From: Ulota crispa
Taxonomy: Eukaryota > Streptophyta > Bryopsida > Orthotrichales > Orthotrichaceae
DNA: 64,000 nucleotides
Direction of reading: 5' to 3'
Assembly: GCA_963920765.1 (NCBI GenBank)
Contig: OY987251.1
Span: forward strand, 6,574,501 to 6,638,500
The stretch's first letter is position 1. Each line of letters begins with the position of its first letter. Positions 2,813 through 56,258 of the stretch are shown here, piece by piece. A model generated the notes under the pieces. The model was not told the origin of the DNA, made no database searches, and saw only the letters and a list, made by a program, of their open reading frames with translations. A program made the position numbers and the translations under genes.

Positions 2813-3099
2813 AATGCCATATTCGTTAATTTGGGTCAAAACGGTCATTTTGGGACTTTTGAAAATTTGGGAAAATTGGCTTGATCACCCAAACCAAGCC
2901 CCTTCGGTACACGTGTTCTCACCGGGGTTCTCACCTGAGAGGAGGAATTTGTTTAGGAAAAAATCTTAGTGGCTCAGACTGAACTTGATACTTTTGAATC
3001 TGGTTTGAGGTGACTATTTTGGTTTGAGGTGACTATTTTGGATTGAGGTGGAGTACCAAATGGTACCTTTGTCTTTCCCAAATTAACGAATATGACGTT
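2813..3099. mobile_element. AACACCATATTC-family MITE, copy a
   Basis: Inverted ends are AATGCCATATTCGTTAATTT (from 2813) and the complement ending ACGAATATGACGTT (to 3099). The inside shares with other copies a GTACACGTG G-box-like word, a CTCACC...GAGGAGGAATTTG block and an AAAAATCTTAGTGGCTCA block. Flanking 4-mers (CACG and TTTG) do not match, so this copy has no clean target duplication. It lies 1.3 kb upstream of the OPR start. Confidence 0.75.
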
Positions 3100-4357: not shown

Positions 4358-11523
<7,166 letters not shown>

Positions 11524-12878
11524 TCTAGATTCTAGACCAAGTTTTGCTAGTCCGAATATGAAACAATTAACATACTCTTACCGACGTACCACGTGCCCCA
11601 CGAACATAATAATAGTAAGGACTCCTCCACACTACATTTGAGTTGTTCAAAAACTTCTTCAAAACAATACTAAAGTTGAGTAGTTCAAAAGCTAGTGACA
11701 ACGGACAAAAGTTGTCCACAATATGGTGACTCGCTGTGGTATGCCGACACATTGTCCAAACTTCTTATCATTATGATCATATTCGTTAAATTGGGATTGC
11801 TATAGCTCAAAGTTGAAAGTTATTTGAAATTCTTGTAGGCAATCACTGAGACTTCAATTCAATATTGTACAAAAAAATTGCATGCTTTTGTAATATGCTG
11901 AATTTCACATAATGACAGAAATAAAGAAAGTCACAGAATGTACTCTTTTTCCCAATTTAACGAATATGGTGTTCATAGCTACCAACACACCAAGGGCAAA
12001 ATACATATGCATCCAAATTGAAACTTTATCTCGAAGTGTTATTCAGCATGTAAAGTAGGATCACTCAAGTCCACGAACGTTTCCACCAAAAGCATGCCCT
12101 GATAAATCTAGATAAATAATACAATTTTTTTGCACGATATTCAAACCAAGAATGTGGAAATTAGCACTCAAATTTGAAAAATTTGGTATCTGAATTTTGA
12201 CCTCTTATATTTATTTGCATTTTATATTCAAATATAAACCGTGGACCTCAACTACTCTTAGTTGCAAAGGACCTAGGTGTGACCAAAAAAACCAGACCAA
12301 ATGACACACTAACAACCTTGTCATAGAAGCTTGATCAGGAATCTATCATCCAACCTTACGTACAATAATGACAAGTTAGAGTGAGGCTCCTGAATAACAG
12401 GAAGTGCTAGAACACTTTAAAATGCACGCTAGTCGGAAGGACTCCTGAATCCGATCAAATTTTTGATTAGCGACAAAGCTTGAAGTTTCAACACACAGCT
12501 AGAGTGCGTGCTTCAATCATACAATGAAGGCCATTTTTACTGAAACAAAGAGTGTGTTTATCAACATCAAAGTTGTGTAGCTAATATCTTTTAAAACAGT
12601 TTGATAATATTGCTCAGTTAAATGAGTTAGCTCTATTTCATGCAAAGTCAAAGAGCACACAAAACTACCTCTTAGAACTGAAAAGAATCTACTCTGCAAG
12701 TAGGCATATACCAAGAGATTTCAAATTCTAAGAAAATTCACAATGAGAGGAAGGCTTTACTGAAGAGAAATTTGCCTAAATGAACAAAAAATAACAGAGT
12801 AAGCACCTGTATTAATTACGAAAATTGGACAAACCTGCCAAAGAAGAATCTTGAAACGATATTTTAAGTGGAAGGGTT
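11524..12878. other. Intergenic DNA between convergent OPR and UTR2-like genes
   Basis: This AT-rich stretch should hold both 3' untranslated regions. Apart from a MITE at 11773-11973 I see no gene. The OPR stop is at 11523; the transporter stop on the other strand is at 12879-12881. Confidence 0.55.
11773..11973. mobile_element. AACACCATATTC-family MITE, copy g (diverged inside)
   Basis: The ends match the family (CATATTCGTTAAATTGGG and CCCAATTTAACGAATATGGTGTT, the latter at 11951-11973), but the interior differs from copies a-e and the element is only 201 bp. Flanks CATT and CATA differ by one base, in keeping with an older 4-bp duplication. Confidence 0.7.
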
Positions 12879-15800
12879 TCAAAAGCACCACTTCGAGCAG
12901 AGCATCCATTGTCTAATATTCCCATTTTCATCTTCAGCTTCTAAAATAATTGAGAATGGCTCCCCAGATCCACGTTTGTATCTTACAACTCTGCATTTCA
13001 AGCAATTGCGTAAGGTTACACTTTTGAGCAGTAGTGAGGCATAGATCCTTTGAAGAAACTGCAAAAAAATTACAAGTTATTTAAGAGCAAAGTCATGCCA
13101 ATTTACTTGTTCAAATTTAACCCCTAAATGCCTGCGGCACCAAATTTTGGTGTTTGCAATACTTTGAAGTTCAATGAACCTAGCTAAGTTACTATTTTTA
13201 GAAGTTTGCATTTTGGACTTTTTCTTTGTGAAGTCTAATTTTAGGATCAACAATCTGATTTTGAAAATGATCAATTATGAGTTTTTTATTCAAGCTTTTG
13301 TGCAAGGGTCTTGACTTTCTCTAGTGTTGAGAGCTCTTGGAAATGAGCCTCAAATACACTAGATCTTGGAGAAAAGTTTACATTAAAAATTCATTTAAAA
13401 TAATTGTAGAAAAGATTTTGAAAAGCTATAAAGTGATTGGGGTTATATATGTTATTTCCTTTAACCTTATATTTTTTTGATGGTCATTTTTTTAGATCCA
13501 TCATGTGAAAAGAGGATTCAAAGGCTTCAAGTCATTTTTGTAGTTTTAACACCCTCATGATCAAACATTATAATCTTTCAATCCACTAGTGATATTGTTG
13601 TGTTTTCTTTTCTTGTGTGACCTCTAACATATCTATATTGAATTTGTACGGTTACAATTCAAAAGAACCTGATATAGCTTATTATAATGTTGCCTTTCGT
13701 TCAATTTGAAGCAAATTTCTAAAAGCCGAAAAAAGGCCTCAGGCATTTAGGGGTTAAGCTCAACTTTGCAAAAACAAGGTGTAAGGGTTCCTCTAAAATG
13801 TGAAAAAATTAGAGAGAATACTTCACTCTACAGTCTAGAACTTCATGACCAATTCACCAAATCGGAAGATGATACTCACCTTGTTCTAATTTAGATATTC
13901 CATCTGTCGGATTTGATCGTGATGAGGAAGCTTCAGTTTGCAATGGGCTGTATTTGGCAGCACCCATAATCCGATGCTGACAATGGTCTGGCAACATCTT
14001 TAGGGTGATTCCCATTCCGATGAAAATTAGTCCAGTGCAATGTTGTCCTAATAGTGGCTTAGTGAAAATGACGTAAGAAAGAAGTAGCGTGGTTGCCTTG
14101 CGAGCGGTCGTCACCTAAACCAAGACAGTTCATAACTCAAAAAAATTATAGAAAGTGGTGAGTAACGAACACTGATATAAACCTAATTTCAACAGCAATC
14201 AGAAATCCTCATTTACGGGAAGTCCCAATCTACATAACTCCTGCAAGGATGCTTTCAAGTGGCAAAAAGCATCCACATGAACCCCGACAGGACCAAGGAC
14301 TTGACAACGACAAATTTGATTGTGAAAAAAAAATTAGATGAGACCAAATTTTATATATGTAGAATAGATGAAAACACTGTATGTGCTGGTGAAAAGATAT
14401 CTGACAGAAAGTCCTTATATGAACAACCATACAAAAATGCTAAGAGTATCGTGGGGTAAAATTTGGACCGCTTGATCTTCTAGGGGTTTAGAATAGAGGT
14501 GAGAACTGTGCGCGCTTACCATAGCTGTTGTAGCAGCACCGAACAAAGCAATGAGGCAAAGGACAGATAATTGTCCAATGAACGTCGCGCACGCCTCGAA
14601 AATAAGCACGAGATAGATGTACGGATGCTGCAACAACAATACCATGAACCCCAATTATGATGCTGTTGATGTTCAATCAACACTTCCAAACACAATTTCT
14701 ATGGAAAACGTTACGTTGTATCTTGTACTCTTTGACCCCATCTCAAAGAGTACAAGTTATTGGTGTTCGTTCATAGATTTCACCCTTGAAGATTTTTAAT
14801 TAAATCAAGCGTTGTTGATGCACAACCAGAGCTACCAGGGGCGGATAATGAAAATCAATTCAAACCCTCCTTTGTTTTGCACATTTACTTGCACCTCCTA
14901 CAATGAGAGTTTCTGATGAATCGATTGAGTATTTCATCGTATAGCAAACGAATAGTAATTCAAATCTTTAACCAAATCTAGCACCAGAGTTGCGCAACAT
15001 GAAATATAAAAGTTAGAAGATGAAAGCGAGGGTGAAACTCAAAATCTAACGAGTAATACATACTCAAAAGGAAAACAATAACATATATTGCGTATGGTAT
15101 CGCAGAAAAGTAAGTATCCTCCACCTGAAAGCAGTTGGACCAAGCCCGAAAAAATTCGCCCGTGATGAGCATCGGTGGGATAAGGAATGGAAGACCCACT
15201 GTTGTCGAACAGAAGAGCATCTCCAACTGTTGAAAGCACGAAAGAAATCAGTCGCATTGTGGGCAAACATGGCTCTCACCAAACATATCCCCAAAGCAGG
15301 CACCATGGCAAATTTCTCCTTACTATTCTCCGGACATGTCAATTTGGCTGGTTGTGACAAGAGACATAAATGGCACAAGGCTTGCCTGAGTGGTAGCAGG
15401 ATTGATTGTGAAGATAGCCTCTTGAAAGTTTCCCACAAACGAGTCCAGGACAAGCGCTCCCACAACCATTACCACACCCAAGATGCTGAAATTTGGAGAA
15501 GTTTGGGCATCCGCAAGAGTAAAAGTCACAAGTCCCAGCACCAGCAGCACTGCAGAAACGTATTCCAGTATGGAGTATCGACGTCTCAACCCCGGTACAA
15601 ATGCACCCATTATCATCACCGGTAAAACCTGTTCAAGAAATATAATCACCGTTGAAAAACGAAAACCAAGGGAACATAGAACACAAGTAGCACACAGTAC
15701 GTATTTGCACATCCGCATACTCAATATTGTAATTAAAGCAATTGAAGACAACAGAGGACACCTACAGATTAAGCACGAATGGGCAAGTATGTCCACTATA

Positions 15801-17486
15801 GAGCCCAAGCTAGAATCAAATAGTATAAGTTCATCGCAGCTGGTAAATTGGCATGGAAAGAGAACATAAAATAAAACCTGAAGCAGGAAAAAGATCTTTA
15901 GCGTTGGGGGGTCTGCTGTCAATTCTATGTAAAAATACTTGTAAAAACCATTAACCTATATTGATCCCGTCTGTATTTTTGACCAAGTTACCAGCAGAAG
16001 CTCATCTATTCATGCACTTGGTTGAACTTAGTAGCATGTAGCGTAAGCAAAGACTTAACTGAACGTCTATGCCCACTATTCCTTGAAGGGGTTTCCTACT
16101 GTCACTTATAGAGGTCTTTAAACTCTCGCTTCAAAATTCCATGAAGTATTATGAAAGATTTGATTTCAACTGAATTTTGTAACGAAAGTGATGTCTTCAT
16201 AAATCTCCCAGAATCACACTTCCGCATGTATTAAATGCTTTAAATGGCGCAAACAGTGTGCTCTACCTTAATGGCTATGCAAAGCTTCGAAAGCGTTAGT
16301 CAGAACAAGAACAGCTAACAGCATGATGAACACAATGAGTAAGGGAAGTACCTTGGTGGATTTGAACATGATCTGTGCAGGGTAGTTGAGGAACATGAGA
16401 GAGCCTTTGGTAAGCCCATGAGATCCCATCAACACAGCTGACAGCTTGATATACGTCTTCCAGGGGTTGACCATGTGTTTCGGTCGGAAGCCATACCATG
16501 AAATCAACCCCAAGTAGACGAAGCCTTGAATGAAAGTAAAATACCAACCGTAACTGCCAACCATCAAAGCTGAATGTTAAATATTGCATTTCCAGCTTAC
16601 AACCGGACCACAGGAGAAACTGAAGGAAAATTAAACAATAGAATGACATTCAAATCTTTGAGATACACATTAATTCTCTGTTACAGGTGAACATATTAAC
16701 CATTTTTGCTCAAACAACAGCAACTTAGGAGAAAGGAAGAACGGAGGAGCGTGGAGTTGTAAACTGACCTAAATTGAAGTCTGTTGTACACATATTCCTG
16801 CATCCAGATTCTGTGTTAATAAAGGCAAGTAACACTAACAACGTATACTTTGATACTCCAGATCTCATTCTAAAACCTGAAAAATATCCTTGATAAGCCA
16901 ATTGAGTCTTTATTTAGAGTTTAGATAATCGAAGTACGCCAAGAATCGAATTCTTTTGAGACCATGGAAATAATTGTCAGCCTCAATTCCAGCGCAACTA
17001 GTTGAATTTCAGACTGAGCTGTTTTAAAACTTTTAGGAAATTTTCCACACTTGGTTCGTCTTCAATGAAGGTAGTTAAGTGTAAGTAATAATTGACTAGA
17101 TGACTACGGTCACTGGAATTGGAGTGGAAATTTATACTATCTATGGTCTACAAGCTCTCACTCTGGAATTGCATAAGAGGTTTGTACGAAGTGATTAAAA
17201 GTTGACATCGAGAGAGTGTGGTTCTTGTACCTGAAGTGATGTCTCTGGAATTCTATTGTGTAGTCTCCCATGAAAGTACAAATGCTTGAAGTGACGCAAA
17301 TAGTATCAACTCTGTTAATCAAATAAGAAGCTCAAGGTTGCTGATGGTACACACCTCGCAAACACCGTTAATCATGTAGCCGAAGAAGAAGCCGCCACCA
17401 CAAATGAGAAGCTGCATCCATCTGGACTTTGAGCTCACGTTGCACCCAAGCAACCACACCTCATTCTCCTCTGCTTGTTGTCCCAT
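12879..17486 (-). CDS. UTR2: UTR2/UTR4-like UDP-galactose/UDP-glucose transporter (SLC35B family)
   Basis: Multi-pass Golgi/ER nucleotide-sugar transporter of the UTR2/UTR4 plant group, related to animal PAPS transporters. Minus-strand exons in order: 17355-17486, 16769-16797, 16352-16553, 15386-15628, 15125-15226, 14520-14627, 13880-14114, 12879-12940; joined 370 aa. Family signatures: [22 protein letters not shown], split across exons 1-2; [68 protein letters not shown]; and FTKPL near the C terminus. Exon 2 is only 29 bp. The exon 4 donor is CAG|GCAAGC, a GC-AG intron, and phase agrees on both sides. The last exon gives an acidic-then-Trp/Cys tail and is the least certain; without it the frame stops at 13854. 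A TTAA MITE sits in the last intron. Substrate preference cannot be read from sequence. Confidence 0.9.
13117..13757. mobile_element. TTAA-flanked MITE (in UTR2-like last intron)
   Basis: Bounded by TTAA at 13117-13120 and 13754-13757, with inverted ends CCCCTAAATGCCTG (13121-13134) and CAGGCATTTAGGGG (13740-13753), a perfect match. The inside is closely related, in opposite orientation, to 40632-41285, and also to 45656-46993. No transposase frame. Confidence 0.87.
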
Positions 17487-19106: not shown

Positions 19107-19277
19107 AATAATAAATTTCACCTATAAATGGCCCTGCATTTTAACCTTGAAAAACTTGCTATTTTTTAAATTGATTTATTGATTTTGAGTTGAGACTCCA
19201 TTTCTGCTCATAGAATCTTGGATCCCCGCTTATGGCGCACCATTTTAAACTCACCAAATAGAGTCGTCCATATGAGG

Positions 19278-24384: not shown

Positions 24385-26250
24385 CTTGACATTGCACATT
24401 TTTTTGAGCCAAATGAAGACAAAGTTTATTATTCTTGATAAATCTTCATTTTGTAGAATTGCAATTGCGTAGTTTGTTGCCAGTTTTGTTGCAATCCTTT
24501 TCAAAACTTAAGAAGAAGATGGCATGATCATGTACATGATTAATTGTTTCAACCAACGTTTGAGGAGAACCATTGGTTGATGTATTGTCATCCACTTGAA
24601 ATTGAAATTGCAAAAAAACCGGTTGAAACTTGAAACTACTAGAAAAAAATTCACAAGTTTTCTCCAAAAATCTAATTTGAGAAAAAAAATCCATGTTTCT
24701 CCAAAAATTTAATTTAAAAAAATCCATTTTCTCCTAAAATCTAATTATACTACATTTTATTAAATTGATAAAAATTTCAAAAGAAATAAATGGTCCATGC
24801 TAGTAAAAAGTTGGTTGAAATTGGGAATGCCAGATTTTAGCCGAAGAAGCTAAAATTTCTCCCTAAGCACTAGTTTCAACATGCATTTTCCAACATTCTG
24901 ATTCAATTATGCTTATAGATAATGACAAATTCTAAAATCTAGATTCTAAAATCTAACCCAAATTCAACTCAAGTACTATTGACCCATGATTTCTAACATT
25001 CTTAACACATTTGTGATACGGAGTAGCTTTTAAAAACCTTAAAAAAAAACTTGGGAAACATACACTTCTATTTGGTGAGCATAAAACGGTGAGCCATGAG
25101 TGGGAATTCAAGATTTTGTGAGCAATAATAAGTTCTCAACTAAAATCAATGAAATAACTAAAAACACCATATTCATTAAAATGGGAAATTTCCACTGAAT
25201 TGAGAGGTAATTGAAAGGAAATTTTGACTAAAGGTTTTATTGTAATTTAGCTTGAGTCAAGCTAAATTGCAATAAAACCTTTCAAAATTGACCTAAAATT
25301 CAAAGGATTAACGTCAATTGAGTTGAAAGTTCCACTTTTTATGGAAATTGCCAATTTAGGTCAAGATCAACATGGTTATTTTGAGAGGTGCCCAATCTCC
25401 CATTTCAATGAATATGGTGTTTAAAAGAATGGCAATTTTTTCAAGAGATGATAGTTTAAAATTTACAATTATAGGGCCATATGTACACAATTATAGGTGG
25501 AATTCATTGTTTTGGCAAAAAATCCCAGCTCATGGCTCACAGATCCACGCTCATGAAATAGCATTCCCCTTGGAAACAAGCCTTAACCCCTAAGCACCTA
25601 GACTTGAAACCAAAAAAATCTGACCTACTTGCAGTCAAAGTGCCCTTGTGGACTGAAAAATACAATCTACAAGATTGGAACCATACAAATTGTTAGTAGG
25701 AAGCATCTCCATCATGATGGGCTTGATTGGAGGTGGTTTCACCAAAGGAGCAATGAGATTACCTTAGTCAAACTTGCGTTCACCCAGCTTTTGGAGAGAC
25801 ATTATAATGTCTCTTGGACGCTCAGGGGCAATGTTTGGGGAGGTTTAAAAAAAAACTTGGTACATTTCCTACTCTTCTTTGGTCTACTCGTTTTTTTTTT
25901 TCTTTAGTCTGCCATGGCCTAGACATGTATTTTTTGGTTGGCCAATAACCTTAGTTTTTTTTTTTTCACTTGGATGATTTCCTAAGTTGAGGAAATTAGT
26001 TTGGTTGAAAACTAAATTTCAATGTATTATATCAGGTTTCTTTTTTTTTACTAATGCTGCAAACAAATTCATCTTTTGCTTACCATGTGCAAAGCATAGC
26101 AAAGCAAGGCAATGATAAAGACAACAACAACTTGTCAAGTTACCTCCAATCAATGCAAATTTCTTTATACTTTTAATGAGTTTATTGTTGACTTCTATTA
26201 CTTAAATATCTTTGGCTGGATTTTAACCAAGTCAAGTCCCACTCTCCCAT
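24385..26250. other. AT-rich intergenic DNA with one MITE and one TTAA end
   Basis: Apart from the MITE at 25163-25421, the only feature is TTAACCCCTAAGCACC at 25583, which looks like a TTAA-element left end without a visible right end. No coding exon is supported. Confidence 0.5.
25163..25421. mobile_element. AACACCATATTC-family MITE, copy h (second subfamily)
   Basis: Ends AACACCATATTCATTAAAAT and the inverse ending ATTTCAATGAATATGGTGTT. TAAA flanks both sides (25159-25162, 25422-25425), an exact 4-bp duplication. The interior (AGTTGAAAGTTCC, GATCAACATGGTTATTTTGA) matches copy j at 46106, not copies a-e. The middle holds an AGCTTGAGTCAAGCT palindrome. Confidence 0.87.
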
Positions 26251-26562: not shown

Positions 26563-26950
26563 ACATGGCCACCTCACCCATATTTCTTGTTTTTTTAATT
26601 TATGAACTTTTAGCACTGTGTAACTACTCATGAAATAAAAAAACATCTGATTTTTATTTAGAAGGTCAAAAAAATTCCTTATCAAAAAAAGTTAATAGGT
26701 TGATTTCTCATAATTTCAATTTTCATTTGGCCCATTTCCTCATCTACAAGTGCATGTTTGGTTAAATTTCCTAAGGTTGAAATTATAACTCGGCTGATTT
26801 CCTCAAACCATACTTTCATGGTCGGAAGTAAATCTAGCAACTTTTATTGTCTTTTGACAATTCCAAAAAAATCGACTACCTTGTAACTAAAAGTTGGTTC
26901 TCTCTGGAGTCTGGACACTGCTCAAGGGTTCAGAGTGAGATGGAAGTAGG
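26563..26950. other. Spacer between two minisatellites
   Basis: AT-rich DNA with no feature I can name. It separates the C-rich 32-bp array from the 22-bp array. Confidence 0.5.
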
Positions 26951-27533
26951 GATGAACATGGTATGAGCATGGGATGAACATGGTATGAGCATGGGATGAA
27001 CATGGTATGAGCATGGGATGAACATGGTATGAGCATGGGATGAACATGGTATGAGCATGGGATGAACATGGTATGAGCATGGGATGAACATGGTATGAGC
27101 ATGGGATGAACATGGTATGAGCATGGGATGAACATGGTATGAGCATGGGATGAACATGGTATGAGCATGGGATGAACATGGTATGAGCATGGGATGAACA
27201 TGGTATGAGCATGGGATGAACATGGTATGAGCATGGGATGAACATGGTATGAGCATGGGATGAACATGGTATGAGCATGGGATGAACATGGTATGAGCAT
27301 GGGATGAACATGGTATGAGCATGGGATGAACATGGTATGAGCATGGGATGAACATGGTATGAGCATGGGATGAACATGGTATGAGCATGGGATGAACATG
27401 GTATGAGCATGGGATGAACATGGTATGAGCATGGGATGAACATGGTATGAGCATGGGATGAACATGGTATGAGCATGGGATGAACATGGTATGAGCATGG
27501 GATGAACATGGTATGACCATGGGATGAACATGG
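26951..27533. repeat. 22-bp minisatellite, 26 near-identical copies
   Basis: The unit GATGAACATGG+TATGAGCATGG repeats 26 times between 26951 and 27522, plus a half unit. Only the last full unit shows a change (GACCATGG). Each unit is a diverged pair of 11-bp halves, so CATGG occurs every 11 bp. Because 22 is not a multiple of 3, all three minus frames read through the array and encode the same 22-residue repeat, giving open frames of about 200-260 codons with no support as genes. The array ends about 600 bp before the GILP-like start codon. Confidence 0.95.
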
Positions 27534-28132
27534 CATGCAAGATGAACGAAACTAATGAGCAGATCAGTGGACGAGAAGGCGCTTTAAACCACGGAAGGAA
27601 AAAAGACGGGAGAGGACTTCTCACCAACGTCGTGCCGAACTGCGGAGGAGCTCGCGATTTGGATCGAAACTCGGGCACTATCCATCACGAAAAGACTGAA
27701 GTCTCTCGCAAAATCACGACGCTCCTGTACGAGGTACACATTTTTTCTTCAAACATTTCTGAGTCTGAAAAACTATATACCCTCATATGGTATTTCTAGG
27801 GTTTCAAATTTTCAAGGTTTCCTCCTTCGCCGTTACTTGAATCATTGCAGTCCGTTCATCGAATCCTTTTAGCTTAAGTTTCAGCAAGTAGTCACGAGAA
27901 TCGGTTACTCCTTGCGAAGGTCCAAAAACTCGAAAGATCGTACTATTAGGGTTTTGAATCCGCATTTTTTCTGCAAGCTATCTGACGGTGCCTTAATTTG
28001 ACCAGGTGAAGAGTACGACAAAATTGTGGAGAAGCTGTGAACAATATTTTTGTTGGAGACACGAGAAGGAGAGAAAGAGCGGTGAATTGTACAAGAGCTG
28101 TTAGGGTTTGAGTTTTTAGTGAAAGGAGCGCG
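27534..28132 (+). promoter_or_regulatory. GILP-like gene 5' region, possible leader intron
   Basis: GC-richer DNA between the 22-bp array and the start codon. GAG|GTACAC at 27734 and a T-rich tract ending CCAG|GTG at 28005 could bound a 5'-leader intron of about 270 bp. This rests on splice signals only. Confidence 0.35.
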
Positions 28133-40547: not shown

Positions 40548-41337
40548 GAGCTTCTCCACTCCAGCCCATAACTAGACCAGGAATACCAAGCTTCCCATAT
40601 TAAGAGCCATCAGCTCATGATCTGATGCCTCTTAACCCCTCACCGTCCTTAGTATTTTTGAGTATCTCAAAATTTGCTTGAAAGTGATTAAAATGCTGGC
40701 ATTTTGATCAATCTAATCAACTTTCTTTAAAGCACAACTGTACAAATTCGAAGTAGACATGTTATAAATCACATAGGAAAAGAAATCATAGCAATATCTC
40801 TTGTGGATTGAAAGATTATAATGTTTGATCATGAGGGTGATAAAACTGCAAACGTGATTTGAAGTCTTTCAATCCTCTTTTTGCATCTCAAACCTAATAT
40901 TGAGGGTACCAAAAAAATATGAGTATGTAAAGTATAACAAGTATAACCCCAATCAATTTACGGCTTCTCAAAATCTATTCTATAATTTTTTAAATTGAGT
41001 TTTTAATGTGATTTTTTCTCCAAGTTCTAGTGTACTTGAGGCTCATTTCCAAGAGCCTTCAACACTAGAAAGTGAAGGTTTACAATGGACACCCTTGCAC
41101 AAAATCTTGAATAGACAAATCACTTTAATTCATCTTCAAAATGAGACTCCCAGTGCTAAAACTAGACTTCAATAAGAATTTAAAGCTAATAATAATCACA
41201 CAAAAAAATCTTGAAAAAATGTCACGCATCTCTAAATAAAATTTAGAGATGCCTGATTTAGGCCCCTTGGATAGTGAGGGGTTAATATGTGAAGCTCAAT
41301 ATTCCAGGTCTGGTTATGGGCTACAGTGGAGAAGCTC
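40548..41337. mobile_element. PIF-like MITE split by a TTAA element
   Basis: Ends GAGCTTCTCCACTCCAGCCC (from 40548) and the inverse GGGCTACAGTGGAGAAGCTC (to 41337), with a continuing ATAACTAGACC/GGTCTGGTTAT pair. Left flank TAA is shared with the preceding element; right flank is TAG. Without the 654-bp insert at 40632 the element would be about 140 bp, a near-complete hairpin. Confidence 0.72.
40632..41285. mobile_element. TTAA-flanked MITE nested in a PIF-like MITE
   Basis: TTAA at 40632-40635 and 41282-41285; ends CCCCTCACCGTCCTTAGTAT and the short inverse GGATAGTGAGGGG. The interior matches 13117-13757 in opposite orientation (for example AAGATTATAATGTTTGATCA). It interrupts the inverted arms of the element at 40548-41337. 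Confidence 0.82.
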
Positions 41338-42160
41338 TAGGAGGCTCAAGAACTGTGCAGTTATTTTGAACCGCCCTATAGAAGTTTCAAAAATTGTGCA
41401 CTCAGCTTCTTAAAATTAGTCTAGTTTTTTAAGTTTAAAAATTGTAATAGTGCATGCATTGTTTTAGAACCTCAAGAGAGTGATATGAGCTATCACTAAG
41501 TGTGCTTATTGTCATAATTGTGTTCAAATTTGACTTTCAGTAAAATATAAATATACGTCATACTAAGATAAATGAAAATTTGTTCTCAATAATGATTTGA
41601 GTATTAGAATATGGAATGGGTGCTTGCACTCTTTAAGGGTCTCATTGGAGCATTCTTGGTTTTGAAATGGTTGCTTTTTGGACTCAAGTGCTCCATTTAC
41701 AAGCACCCTTTGAACCATGAATGTTACAACTTATGATCAAAAATAGCTACCTATGCACCTTTTGCTTTGATAAATTGTAATTAATTCATACCAACTCAAA
41801 AAAATCAATTTAAAAGGTCATAAAATTGTTTCTTCTTTGACTTTCTACTAAAGATATTTCTAAGCTGCTAAACTGCTAAACTGGCTTGATTTTCATACAA
41901 ACGTCATCTTTCCCTTAGAAGGTCGGTTTACAAGCCTCCTACCTTTACATCATCATTGCATTGTCATAGTATCACCACGATATAGTTGATGTATTACCAT
42001 GGTATACCTACTCAAGTCATAACCATATGACCTGGCCGTGACAGGTCAGGTTCCGGGTATAAATCTTTAGAAACCGACCTCTGTAAGCAACCCGAACAGA
42101 ACGATAGGATCTGCAATAGGATGTTCGAAGAATTCGACGAGGACACAGAGCTGATTGAGG
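41338..42160 (+). promoter_or_regulatory. Upstream region of the AlkB-like gene
   Basis: AT-rich DNA with the probable promoter and leader within the last 150 bp, where GC content rises. No element can be named with confidence. Confidence 0.35.
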
Positions 42161-42910
42161 ATGGCGATGACCGACGCCGCAGCTCAGGAGCTTTTCGCAG
42201 CAGTTTTTGGCACGGATTCGGACTCGGAAGATGAACATGAAGGAGTATGTGCGAATGTGAATGTCGATGCAGAGTGGGAAGGGTCACAGGAGAGCAAGCT
42301 TACGCACCACATGTGGCGAGCTGTGGAACTTGTGGATGGTTTGTGGCGATGTGAAAGGTTTCTGAATGTCACGCAGCAGGAGAGTTTGGTATCGGCGATA
42401 GAGGGCGAGGGTTGGTTCACTCAGCCTTCTCATAACCAAGCGATGCGCTTTGGCGTGCTCCCGGGCTGGGCGCTCACCTTGTCTTCTTTAATTTCCTCTT
42501 CTATTTCCAATTACGTGGAGTTAGGGTTAAAGGCGCCTCTGCCAGAGGAGATTCTTCGGAGAATGCCTCTGTTCGATCAGATGATCGTGAATTCTTACCA
42601 GCCCGGTGAAGGTATTAAACCGCATGTGGATTTGGCTCGGTTTGAGGATGGCATTGTGGTGTTGTCACTGTCGTCGTCGTGTGTGATGCGGTTTCGGAAG
42701 TGCGACATGCTCTCGCAGACGGTGGATGTGTTGTTGTTGCCTGGAGATTTGATATTGTTGTCTGGCAACGCGCGGTATAAGTGGACTCATGAGATTAATC
42801 GAGAGCAAGCTGAGGAGCAGGTTTGGGCTGGGAAGGTGTTGGAGCAGGAGAGGCGCATCTCCGTCACTCTCCGACGGCTTTGCCCGGAGAATGATGTACA
42901 TCCCTCGTAG
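42161..42910 (+). CDS. AlkB-like 2OG-Fe(II) oxygenase, ALKBH8-like core without RRM or methyltransferase
   Basis: Single-exon protein of 249 aa, matching the plant stand-alone AlkB family that resembles the oxygenase core of ALKBH8. Iron ligands H155, D157 and H210 are in PHVDLARFEDG and KWTHEI; the 2-oxoglutarate-binding arginine motif RRISVTLR is at 231-238. The region GWFTQPSHNQAMRFG (84-98) and FDQMIVNSYQPGEGI before the HxD are typical. The first 45 residues are acidic and probably disordered. There is no RNA-recognition motif and no TRM9-type methyltransferase domain, so the substrate is unknown. I start at the ATG at 42161; an ATG two codons on would change little. The codons are GC-rich against an AT-rich background. 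Confidence 0.9.
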   Translation: MAMTDAAAQELFAAVFGTDSDSEDEHEGVCANVNVDAEWEGSQESKLTHHMWRAVELVDGLWRCERFLNVTQQESLVSAIEGEGWFTQPSHNQAMRFGVLPGWALTLSSLISSSISNYVELGLKAPLPEEILRRMPLFDQMIVNSYQPGEGIKPHVDLARFEDGIVVLSLSSSCVMRFRKCDMLSQTVDVLLLPGDLILLSGNARYKWTHEINREQAEEQVWAGKVLEQERRISVTLRRLCPENDVHPS

Positions 42911-43338: not shown

Positions 43339-43620
43339 CGAAATACTGCCTTTAGGTTGCCCACATTGATATCATGACATTTTATACTATGAAAATCCTT
43401 ACTTTTCATCAATAATAACAGCAGGAAACAATATTTAACGGGCCTCATATTGATAATGAAGTTGTGAAAAAATAAAGTAGTGGCGTCCAAGTTGTAAACC
43501 ATGTGTATCTTTGTATCTAGAGAGTTGCATGCATCTCCAAATGGTCAAGTTATGAGTCACGAGGTAACTTCATAAGGTATGGTAACCTAATTGTTAAGGC
43601 AACTTACATGCAATATCTAT
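43339..43620. mobile_element. CACTGAATATTGC-family MITE, diverged copy
   Basis: AATACTGCCTTTAGGTTGCC near the left end and GGCAACTTACATGCAATATC near the right are inverted repeats. Interior words (GAGAGTTGCATGCATCTCCA, AGTTATGAGTCACGAG) match the copies at 6364 and 55873. The left flank is TA. Confidence 0.62.
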
Positions 43621-44292: not shown

Positions 44293-44602
44293 AACGTCAT
44301 ATTCAAGTCATATTCATTAAAAGGGAAATACATGGGTCCCATTTGTATTTCACCTGAATCCAAAATAGCCACCTTAATTCAATTAAGAAGGTCACCTAAA
44401 ACTTGTTTAACCCATTAACGCATAGAGGTCTAGAAATACACGGGAAATTGACCATATTCTAGTTGATCGGGCGTTAATGGGTTAATGAACTTTTGTCCAA
44501 AATTCTAAACTTTTTTTCCAAAAATAGCGTATTTTTGGATGATATATATCTCATTTCATTGGAAAAGAGTCACCAGATTCCCAATTCAATGAATATGGCG
44601 TT
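44293..44602. mobile_element. AACACCATATTC-family MITE, copy i, with a nested micro-element
   Basis: The left side carries the terminal word twice (AACGTCATATTC then AAGTCATATTCATTAA); the right end is TTCAATGAATATGGCGTT. Flanks do not match. A 79-bp TTAA-bounded element lies inside at 44407-44485. Confidence 0.65.
44407..44485. mobile_element. 79-bp TTAA-bounded micro-MITE
   Basis: TTAACCCATTAACGC at 44407-44421 is matched by the exact inverse GCGTTAATGGGTTAA at 44471-44485. The ends follow the CCC/GGG rule of the larger TTAA elements, but only 49 bp lie between the two 15-bp terminal words. Confidence 0.68.
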
Positions 44603-45655: not shown

Positions 45656-46105
45656 TTAACCCCAAAATGACCATGAGGACAAATGTGTCCTTGACCAATT
45701 TTTGAAATAAAATTGTACCTTACCAAGTTACTATTTATAATAGGTTTTTTTTTAAAATTCTTTATAAAGCTTAGTTTTAGCTTCAACAATGTGATTTTGC
45801 AAATGATTGATTATGATTTTTTTATTCAAGATTTTGTGCACGGTTGTTCATTGCAATCTTGACTTTATGTAGAGTTTAGGGCTCCTGGAATGAGCCTCAA
45901 ATGCACTAGATCTTTGAGAAAAAATCACATTAGAAATTCATTTAAAAAATTTGTAGAGTAGATTTTGAGAAGTCATAAATAGATTGGGGTTATGCATGTT
46001 AGGCCCTTTAACCTCATACTTTTTTGGTGACCAAATTTTCAAATTTGATATGTGAAAAGAGGATTGAAAGACTTCAAATCACTTTCACAGTTTTAACACC
46101 CTCAT

Positions 46106-46364
46106 AACACCATATTCATTAACATAAGAGTTTTCCATTGAAATGAGAGGTAATTTAAAGTAAATTTGACAAAAGGTTTTATGTCAATTCAACTCAATTT
46201 GAGCTGAATTGGCATAAAAGCCTTTCAAAATTGACTCAAAATTGGAAGGTTTTATGTCAATTTAGCTAAGAACTCTAATTTTAATGGAAATTGCTGATTT
46301 AGGTTGAGATCAACATGGTTATTTTGAGAGGTTCCCAATTTCCCATTTTAATGAATATGGTGTT
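46106..46364. mobile_element. AACACCATATTC-family MITE, copy j, nested with TCAT duplication
   Basis: Ends AACACCATATTCATTAACAT and the inverse ending TTTTAATGAATATGGTGTT. TCAT occurs at 46102-46105 and 46365-46368. The uninterrupted relative (about 13549-13566) reads ACACCCTCATGATCAAAC; here it is ACACCCTCAT + insert + TCATGATCAAAC. This fixes the duplication at 4 bp. Confidence 0.93.
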
Positions 46365-46456
46365 TCATGATCAAACATAATAATGTTTCAATCCATAAGA
46401 GATATTGTTGTGTTTTCTTTTCTAATGTGATCTCTAACATGTCTAGTTTGGTTTTA

Positions 46457-55655: not shown

Positions 55656-56258
55656 GGGCATCTCCACCGGTCCGGGCTCTTTCAAAAATTTCCATTTGTT
55701 TTGGCGAGGCCTCAAGCCCCTTGATCTCTACCAATGCTCTTCAAAAAGGTGGCCTTACACTCCAACACACCCCATAAATAAGCAATTGATCACTTATCAA
55801 GGAAAATAGAGGATAAAACTTACTAAACTTAGGGTGAATAGTGGCTTGAAGAGTGGCTTGCTAGACTTGCTACACTGAATATTGCGTTGAGGTTGCCCCA
55901 CACTAATTTCTTGACATTTTGCACTATATAAATATTTATTGTTGCTACAGTAATTTTCATCAAAAACTACTGCAATAAATAGCTTATAATGGGCTTGTCA
56001 ACAACAATGAATTTGTAAAAAGACAAACTAACAACTTCCCAATCACAAACCATGTGAAATCCAAATATTTAGAGAATTACATGTGCCCTCAAGTGATCAA
56101 ATGATGAGTCATGAGATAACTTACCGTGGTAAGGCAACCCAATTGTCAAGGCAATCTTAATGCAATATTCATTGTGGAACAAAAAATTTGAGAGGATTTT
56201 GAAAGGGGCCTCAACACTTTTCATCCACTTTGAAAGTGAGCCACCGGCGGAGATGCCC
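55656..56258. mobile_element. PIF/Harbinger-like MITE with TTA duplications, hosting another MITE
   Basis: Ends GGGCATCTCCACCGG and the inverse CCACCGGCGGAGATGCCC, flanked by TTA at 55653-55655 and 56259-56261. Related ends occur at 40127. A CACTGAATATTGC-family element is inserted at 55873. The right end is 212 bp before the next gene's start codon. Confidence 0.8.
55873..56174. mobile_element. CACTGAATATTGC-family MITE nested in PIF-like MITE
   Basis: Ends CACTGAATATTGCGTTGAGG and the inverse AATGCAATATTCATTG. Left flank TA, right flank TG. This uninterrupted copy is the reference that reveals the insertion site of the MITE at 6576. Confidence 0.72.

Follow-up and report, generated by a model that had tools for sequence, protein, structure and literature searches.

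A numerous and rather old group of MITEs that duplicate 4 bp of their target

The insert at 46106-46364 of the window (the whole 64,000-nt stretch of DNA analysed here) belongs to a real, abundant and rather old group of MITEs with 4-bp target duplications. A preliminary description had proposed such a family from the letters of the window; the proposal now stands on 50 of 77 end pairs from the window and sampled genome loci and on four paralogous empty sites for three insertions. The copies have the usual marks of MITEs: they are short, non-coding and numerous (71 of 83 fall into groups of 119-302 bp, and the genome holds 2,428 exact ends), they carry terminal inverted repeats and they are flanked by a target duplication of constant length (4 bp). 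Very probably they are non-autonomous TIR DNA transposons with common ends, moved in trans by a transposase with a 4-base stagger. Why would the length of so small a repeat matter? It reflects transposase geometry. The rules quoted for four grass genomes in PMC3579700 assign 3 bp to CACTA, 8 bp to hAT and 9 or 10 bp to Mutator, next to the TA and TAA/TTA types; as they name only classes of 2, 3, 8 and 9-10 bp, the present group is not nameable by them. Once its transposase is named, either a known 4-bp superfamily would gain members in grasses, or one of the familiar plant superfamilies would prove to have changed its stagger.

The insertion at 46106-46364 and its empty sites

Read directly, the insert starts with AACACCATATTCATTAA and ends with TTAATGAATATGGTGTT, and TCAT abuts it on both sides (Table 1). 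Its inverted ends are 95% complementary over 20 nt, and it folds far better than shuffled versions of itself (z -7.5). Are these the true ends of the element? The flanks of the window copies were joined with one duplication and searched against the window. Both relatives of the repeat that this insert entered read CCCTCATGATCAAACAT, gap-free at the junction and with TCAT present once; at base level both run unbroken through CCCTCATGATC, again with a single TCAT. Thus the outer AA and TT are part of the insert and the ends are correctly placed.

The paralogous empty sites are distributed over the insertions at 46106 (two), 6576 (one) and 25163 (one). Two uninterrupted relatives had been pointed out beforehand (as 13117-13757 and 55873-56174); both proved real, at 13274-13635 for 46106 and at 55871-56145 for 6576, and the search added the other two. 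For 6576, with the end placed at 6832, the relative reads AGCAACAATAAATATTT and the joined flanks read AGCAACAGTAAGTATTT, with no gap between the two. The same host repeat has a weaker relative (66%) at 43342-43593, but its alignment is gapped just at the junction, so it proves nothing. The ends of 6576-6832 are variant, with extra A's on the left, and because of these A's a duplication of 4 bp (AGTA) is indistinguishable there from one of 5 bp (AGTAA). The same variant end is seen in locus L075 at 6784-7038, where AACA flanks both sides. As to the six window copies first credited with exact 4-bp repeats, the reading holds for those at 4882, 5510, 7600, 25163 and 46106, and the one at 6576 is a real copy whose repeat may be 4 or 5 bp long. 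Within the window, no uninterrupted relatives of 4882, 5510, 7600, 2813 or 11773 were found, and the empty-site search for 44304 gave a short match on one side only.

Table 1. MITE copies, target duplications and uninterrupted relatives in the window
Feature	Position	Strand	Remarks
MITE copy	46106-46364	+	259 bp; ends AACACCATATTC/GAATATGGTGTT
Left target duplication TCAT	46102-46105		belongs to 46106-46364
Right target duplication TCAT	46365-46368		belongs to 46106-46364
Uninterrupted relative of repeat entered by 46106-46364	13274-13635	+	single TCAT at 13555-13558
Second uninterrupted relative of repeat entered by 46106-46364	40751-41122	-	no insert; single TCAT
MITE copy, same subfamily as 46106	25163-25421	+	259 bp; duplication TAAA at 25159-25162 and 25422-25425
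Uninterrupted relative of flanks of 25163-25421	19146-19262	-	79% over 117 nt
MITE copy, main subfamily	5510-5760	+	duplication GTGT at 5506-5509 and 5761-5764
MITE copy, main subfamily	7600-7844	+	duplication TAAC at 7596-7599 and 7845-7848
MITE copy, main subfamily, left end mutated	4882-5157	+	duplication TATT at 4878-4881 and 5158-5161
MITE copy, variant ends	6576-6832	+	duplication AGTA (or AGTAA) at 6572-6575 and 6833-6836
Uninterrupted relative of repeat entered by 6576-6832	55871-56145	-	gap-free alignment at junction
MITE copy, main subfamily	2813-3099	+	without exact duplication
MITE copy, left end degraded	11773-11973	+	flanks CATT/CATA, one mismatch
MITE copy, left end disturbed	44304-44602	+	without duplication; flanks TATT/CTTG

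Abundance and duplication length

Across the genome (274.8 Mb in 157 contigs) there are 2,428 exact matches to the 12-base end, 1,230 of them on the plus strand and 1,198 on the minus strand, and the reversed 12-mer, taken as a control, has 40 (22 plus, 18 minus). With up to two mismatches, the window alone has 21 occurrences against 7.9 expected from shuffles. Ends were paired with a 17-base consensus, allowing at most five mismatches over both ends together and a distance below 700 bp. This gave 77 pairs from the window and loci L001-L072, drawn from contigs C1-C3 and C5 and from the window (C10), with the overlapping loci L005, L007 and L008 dropped and 6576-6832 not among the pairs; the sample is not a random one, since most of the stretches fetched were picked because one of their ends matched a 12-mer or 27-mer exactly. 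A flush exact duplication of four bases flanks the 50 pairs mentioned above, so the excess of 4-bp identity, whose absence beyond the window was to count against the family, is present in the copies sampled. When the right flanks were shuffled (1,000 permutations), flush 4-base matches averaged 1.3. Identity by position at length 4 is 0.79, 0.86, 0.90 and 0.77, and at the other lengths tried (2-10) it lies between 0.17 and 0.45. The 27 pairs lacking an exact match are off at one base (11 pairs), two (9), three (4) or four (3), which decay could account for.

Could the matches arise by chance because the flanks are rich in A/T, or because an end was placed wrongly? The flanks are 63% A/T, which would help chance along, but the permutations never exceeded 6 matches against the 50 observed and the position of the ends is given separately by the empty sites, so that this explanation is hardly credible. 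The other duplication lengths tell against the familiar classes. Flush matches of 2 bp were found in 6 of 77 pairs, which does not suit Tc1/mariner (Stowaway) with its TA duplication; those of 3 bp, in 5 of 77, do not suit PIF/Harbinger (Tourist) with TAA/TTA and likewise CACTA, whose inverted repeats moreover start with CACTA/G and not with the AAC seen here. A length of 5 bp was matched once in 77, and lengths of 6-10 bp never, which does not suit hAT (8 bp) or Mutator (9-10 bp). The duplicated words are A/T-rich and without a fixed motif, with 39 different words among the 50. TTAA is the duplication of piggyBac and also of Kolobok; it accounts for a single one of the 50, which suits neither.

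The choice of target is itself symmetric. Adding pairs from L075 and L076 brought the set to 83, and the 53 insertions with exact duplications among them show the preference Y|NWWN|R. A pyrimidine precedes or a purine follows the duplicated bases at 74 of 106 sides (p 5.5e-5, a value that is not independent, as the position was first spotted on mostly the same copies), and both sides conform in 24 of the 53. The two central bases are A or T in 87 of 106 cases, against the 63% A/T of the flanks. Of the fourteen positions examined, only one other is notable, the second outside base (p 0.011). With its symmetry about the 4 bp, this preference agrees with two symmetric strand transfers separated by four bases.

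Family structure and age

The copies divide into at least five subfamilies, about 120 to 300 bp long, which have their outer ~25 bases (AACACCATATTCRTTAAATTGGGAAAA) in common and differ in their interiors. Clustering of the 83 copies at 80% length and 75% identity gave a group of 46 copies (238-302 bp; median pairwise identity 79.3%), one of 12 (119-142 bp; 87.3%), one of 6 that includes 25163 and 46106 (253-299 bp; 79.7%), one of 4 (242-259 bp; 88.5%) and one of 3 (275-285 bp; 80.2%). The remaining 12 copies are singletons, some of them with another repeat inside. Median identities of 79-89% indicate an old group. Grasses accumulate about 1.3e-8 substitutions per site per year, and at that rate the two largest groups would be, very roughly, 9 and 5 million years old.

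How would such elements have spread? A cut-and-paste transposase, supplied in trans, would recognise the shared ~25 bp end and link this end to target DNA whose strands are cut four bases apart, after which gap repair by the host would leave the 4-bp duplication. We infer this agent from its footprint, since none of the copies seen carried a transposase. A single type of transposase, presumably of the DDE/D kind, may have served all subfamilies, and it would by now be rare, decayed or lost in this genome. It could come from a 4-bp superfamily, of which Sola is an example, from one of the known plant superfamilies after a change of stagger, or from a superfamily still to be described.

Search for the transposase source

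The preliminary description had suggested looking for a full-length element with the same termini and a transposase, and in limited sampling none was found. Longer exact patterns were used to look for long-spaced ends, and candidate loci were fetched and read. The end places compared amounted to 100 of 2,428, 100 of 157, 100 of 265, 100 of 209 and all of 75 matches, and within this sample no coding element with a transposase between long-spaced ends turned up. Two candidates owe their length to other repeats: L013 4171-5809 (1,639 bp) has another high-copy repeat in its middle, and L027 5004-5623 (620 bp) is split in the same manner. The repeat inside the L013 copy, at 4420-5630, has a near-full relative at C7:21498575-21499811 with 85% identity. 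Six wider spans turned out to be separate short copies (C5:7233789-7237156, C2:21650036-21653408, C2:8126137-8135780, C1:29260592-29267529, C1:7209438-7215241 and C3:29223159-29225074).

A scan of 358 kb, counting the window and loci that overlap, looked for pairs of ends at a distance of 0.7-10 kb and flanked by flush 4-bp duplications. It returned three cases, none of them convincing: two pair poor ends, and the third, L027 91-1239, is a long palindrome apparently unrelated to this MITE group. That stretch, an element or palindrome of 1,149 bp, includes the flanks in its inverted ends (ACACTTAA.../...TTAAGTGT).

The subfamily-specific 39-mer end accounts for the 75 genomic matches that were compared in full. 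Compared by eye with the matches listed, nine of them are paired over about 120 bp, one over about 470 bp and one over about 414 bp; the others have no partner there, and no version of this subfamily several kb long was seen. Within one copy of the 120-bp type, at L072 137-619, lies an inserted sequence that ends in CTCCCTCCGTC/GAGGGAGTA and that we take to resemble Stowaway.

What do the proteins say? A Pfam search (E 0.1) with 20 stop-to-stop open reading frames of 90-315 aa, drawn from L013, L030, L071, L072, L075 and L076, found no transposase; its matches were two Stig1 domains and one SRA1 at chance level. The two Stig1 (stigma-specific protein) frames, at L075 623-1567 and 4698-5510, look like a tandem duplicate amid several MITE copies. 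Such domains would suit a flowering plant, and contig sizes and the style of the genes give the impression of a grass genome. Transposase domains of the PIF type (PF13359) and the CACTA type (PF02992) are plentiful in the genome, with at least 150 matches each (the best 150 of 278 and of 596 first-look candidates, respectively). In a comparison by eye with the end places, which covered these two domains, none lay between paired ends among the matches listed.

Which superfamily moved these elements?

In being short, non-coding, hairpin-forming and present in high copy number, these MITEs resemble Stowaway and Tourist; they differ in their duplication, which is TA or TAA/TTA in those families, as given in PMC3579700, and 4 bp without a fixed sequence here. 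It is possible, if somewhat doubtful, that one of the known plant superfamilies, be it the PIF/Harbinger-IS5 group, CACTA or another, has a lineage with an altered stagger and that this lineage moves the MITEs. The abundance of PIF-type and CACTA-type domains in this genome speaks for it, as does the account of the PHIS group as a whole in PMC10045372, where duplications are described as absent or of 1-4 bp. Against it are ends that start with AAC and not CACTA/G, a duplication of 4 bp in place of TAA/TTA or TA, and the outcome of the comparison by eye described above, in which no PIF or CACTA transposase sat between paired ends among the matches listed. Sola is rather unlikely to be the mover. 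Its elements are mostly 2-9 kb long with a DDD transposase, and here no transposase was seen. Nothing seen here conflicts with Sola: its 4-bp duplication and very variable termini, as the plant review PMC10741241 presents them, are features that the present group shares. The same review indicates that Sola seems not to be common in flowering plants. As no full-length element with a transposase was found in the sampled loci, Sola is a name reached by elimination. A broader reading, which we hold tentatively and regard as possible, is that the transposase belonged to a superfamily undescribed from grasses, either a grass lineage of Sola or a new one, which was once very productive, has since died out here completely or almost so, and left only its MITEs.

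Chapaev (CMC), which had been named beside Sola at the outset, makes a poor candidate and its involvement is improbable. Its duplications of 3-4 bp (PMC4079192) agree with ours and a CAC is present in our ends, but only from the third base; according to the same source Chapaev termini are invariably 5'-CAC and GTG-3', and the insert here runs AACACC...GGTGTT, with the outer AA and TT lying within it. Even less can be said for an integrase-type transposase of the Ginger or IS481 kind, a very remote prospect. Duplications of 4 bp are described for Ginger1 and most Ginger2 elements (PMC2836005) and for some IS481EU families (PMC10045372), and Ginger is said to have been reported in plants. The termini disagree, however: Ginger ends in TGTNR (PMC2836005) and IS481EU in TNT..AYA or TGT...ACA (PMC10045372), and our insert begins with AACACC. 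The targets disagree as well, being CCGG/CCGT for Ginger1 or RTATAY in the Ginger descriptions of PMC2836005, and A/T-rich here.

Is there any precedent for a MITE of this type? A 4-bp duplication had been called unusual in plants, which is fair as far as it goes; a precedent exists in one sugarcane family, sugarcane_1_2650, entered in Table 1 of PMC6331000 with a 4-bp duplication, the superfamily 'n.d.', a length of 155 bp and 13 scaffolds. This is thus a grass MITE with the same duplication length, the likeness being one of table entries. The available parts of PMC4595727, PMC4234012, PMC11560428 and PMC8449440 contain no 4-bp MITE. A literature search with the end sequence returned unrelated titles, an absence that weighs little, most subscription papers being outside its scope. 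The rice repeat database reserves a code for elements whose superfamily is uncharacterised (PMC4508813), so nameless entries for the present group may already exist in it or elsewhere.

Other features of the window

Two tandem arrays lie in the window. The one at 26949-27537 consists of 26.8 copies of a 22-bp unit (GGGATGAACATGGTATGAGCAT) with 99% matches, and is so homogeneous that it must be young or homogenised; the other, at 967-1673, is a degenerate array of the AAAGATTCTC type with higher-order periods of 51 and 122 bp. Gene fragments are found at 10034-10486 (Oxidored_FMN domain), at 15326-15922 on the minus strand (UAA transporter domain) and at 42155-42907 (2OG-Fe(II) oxygenase domain).
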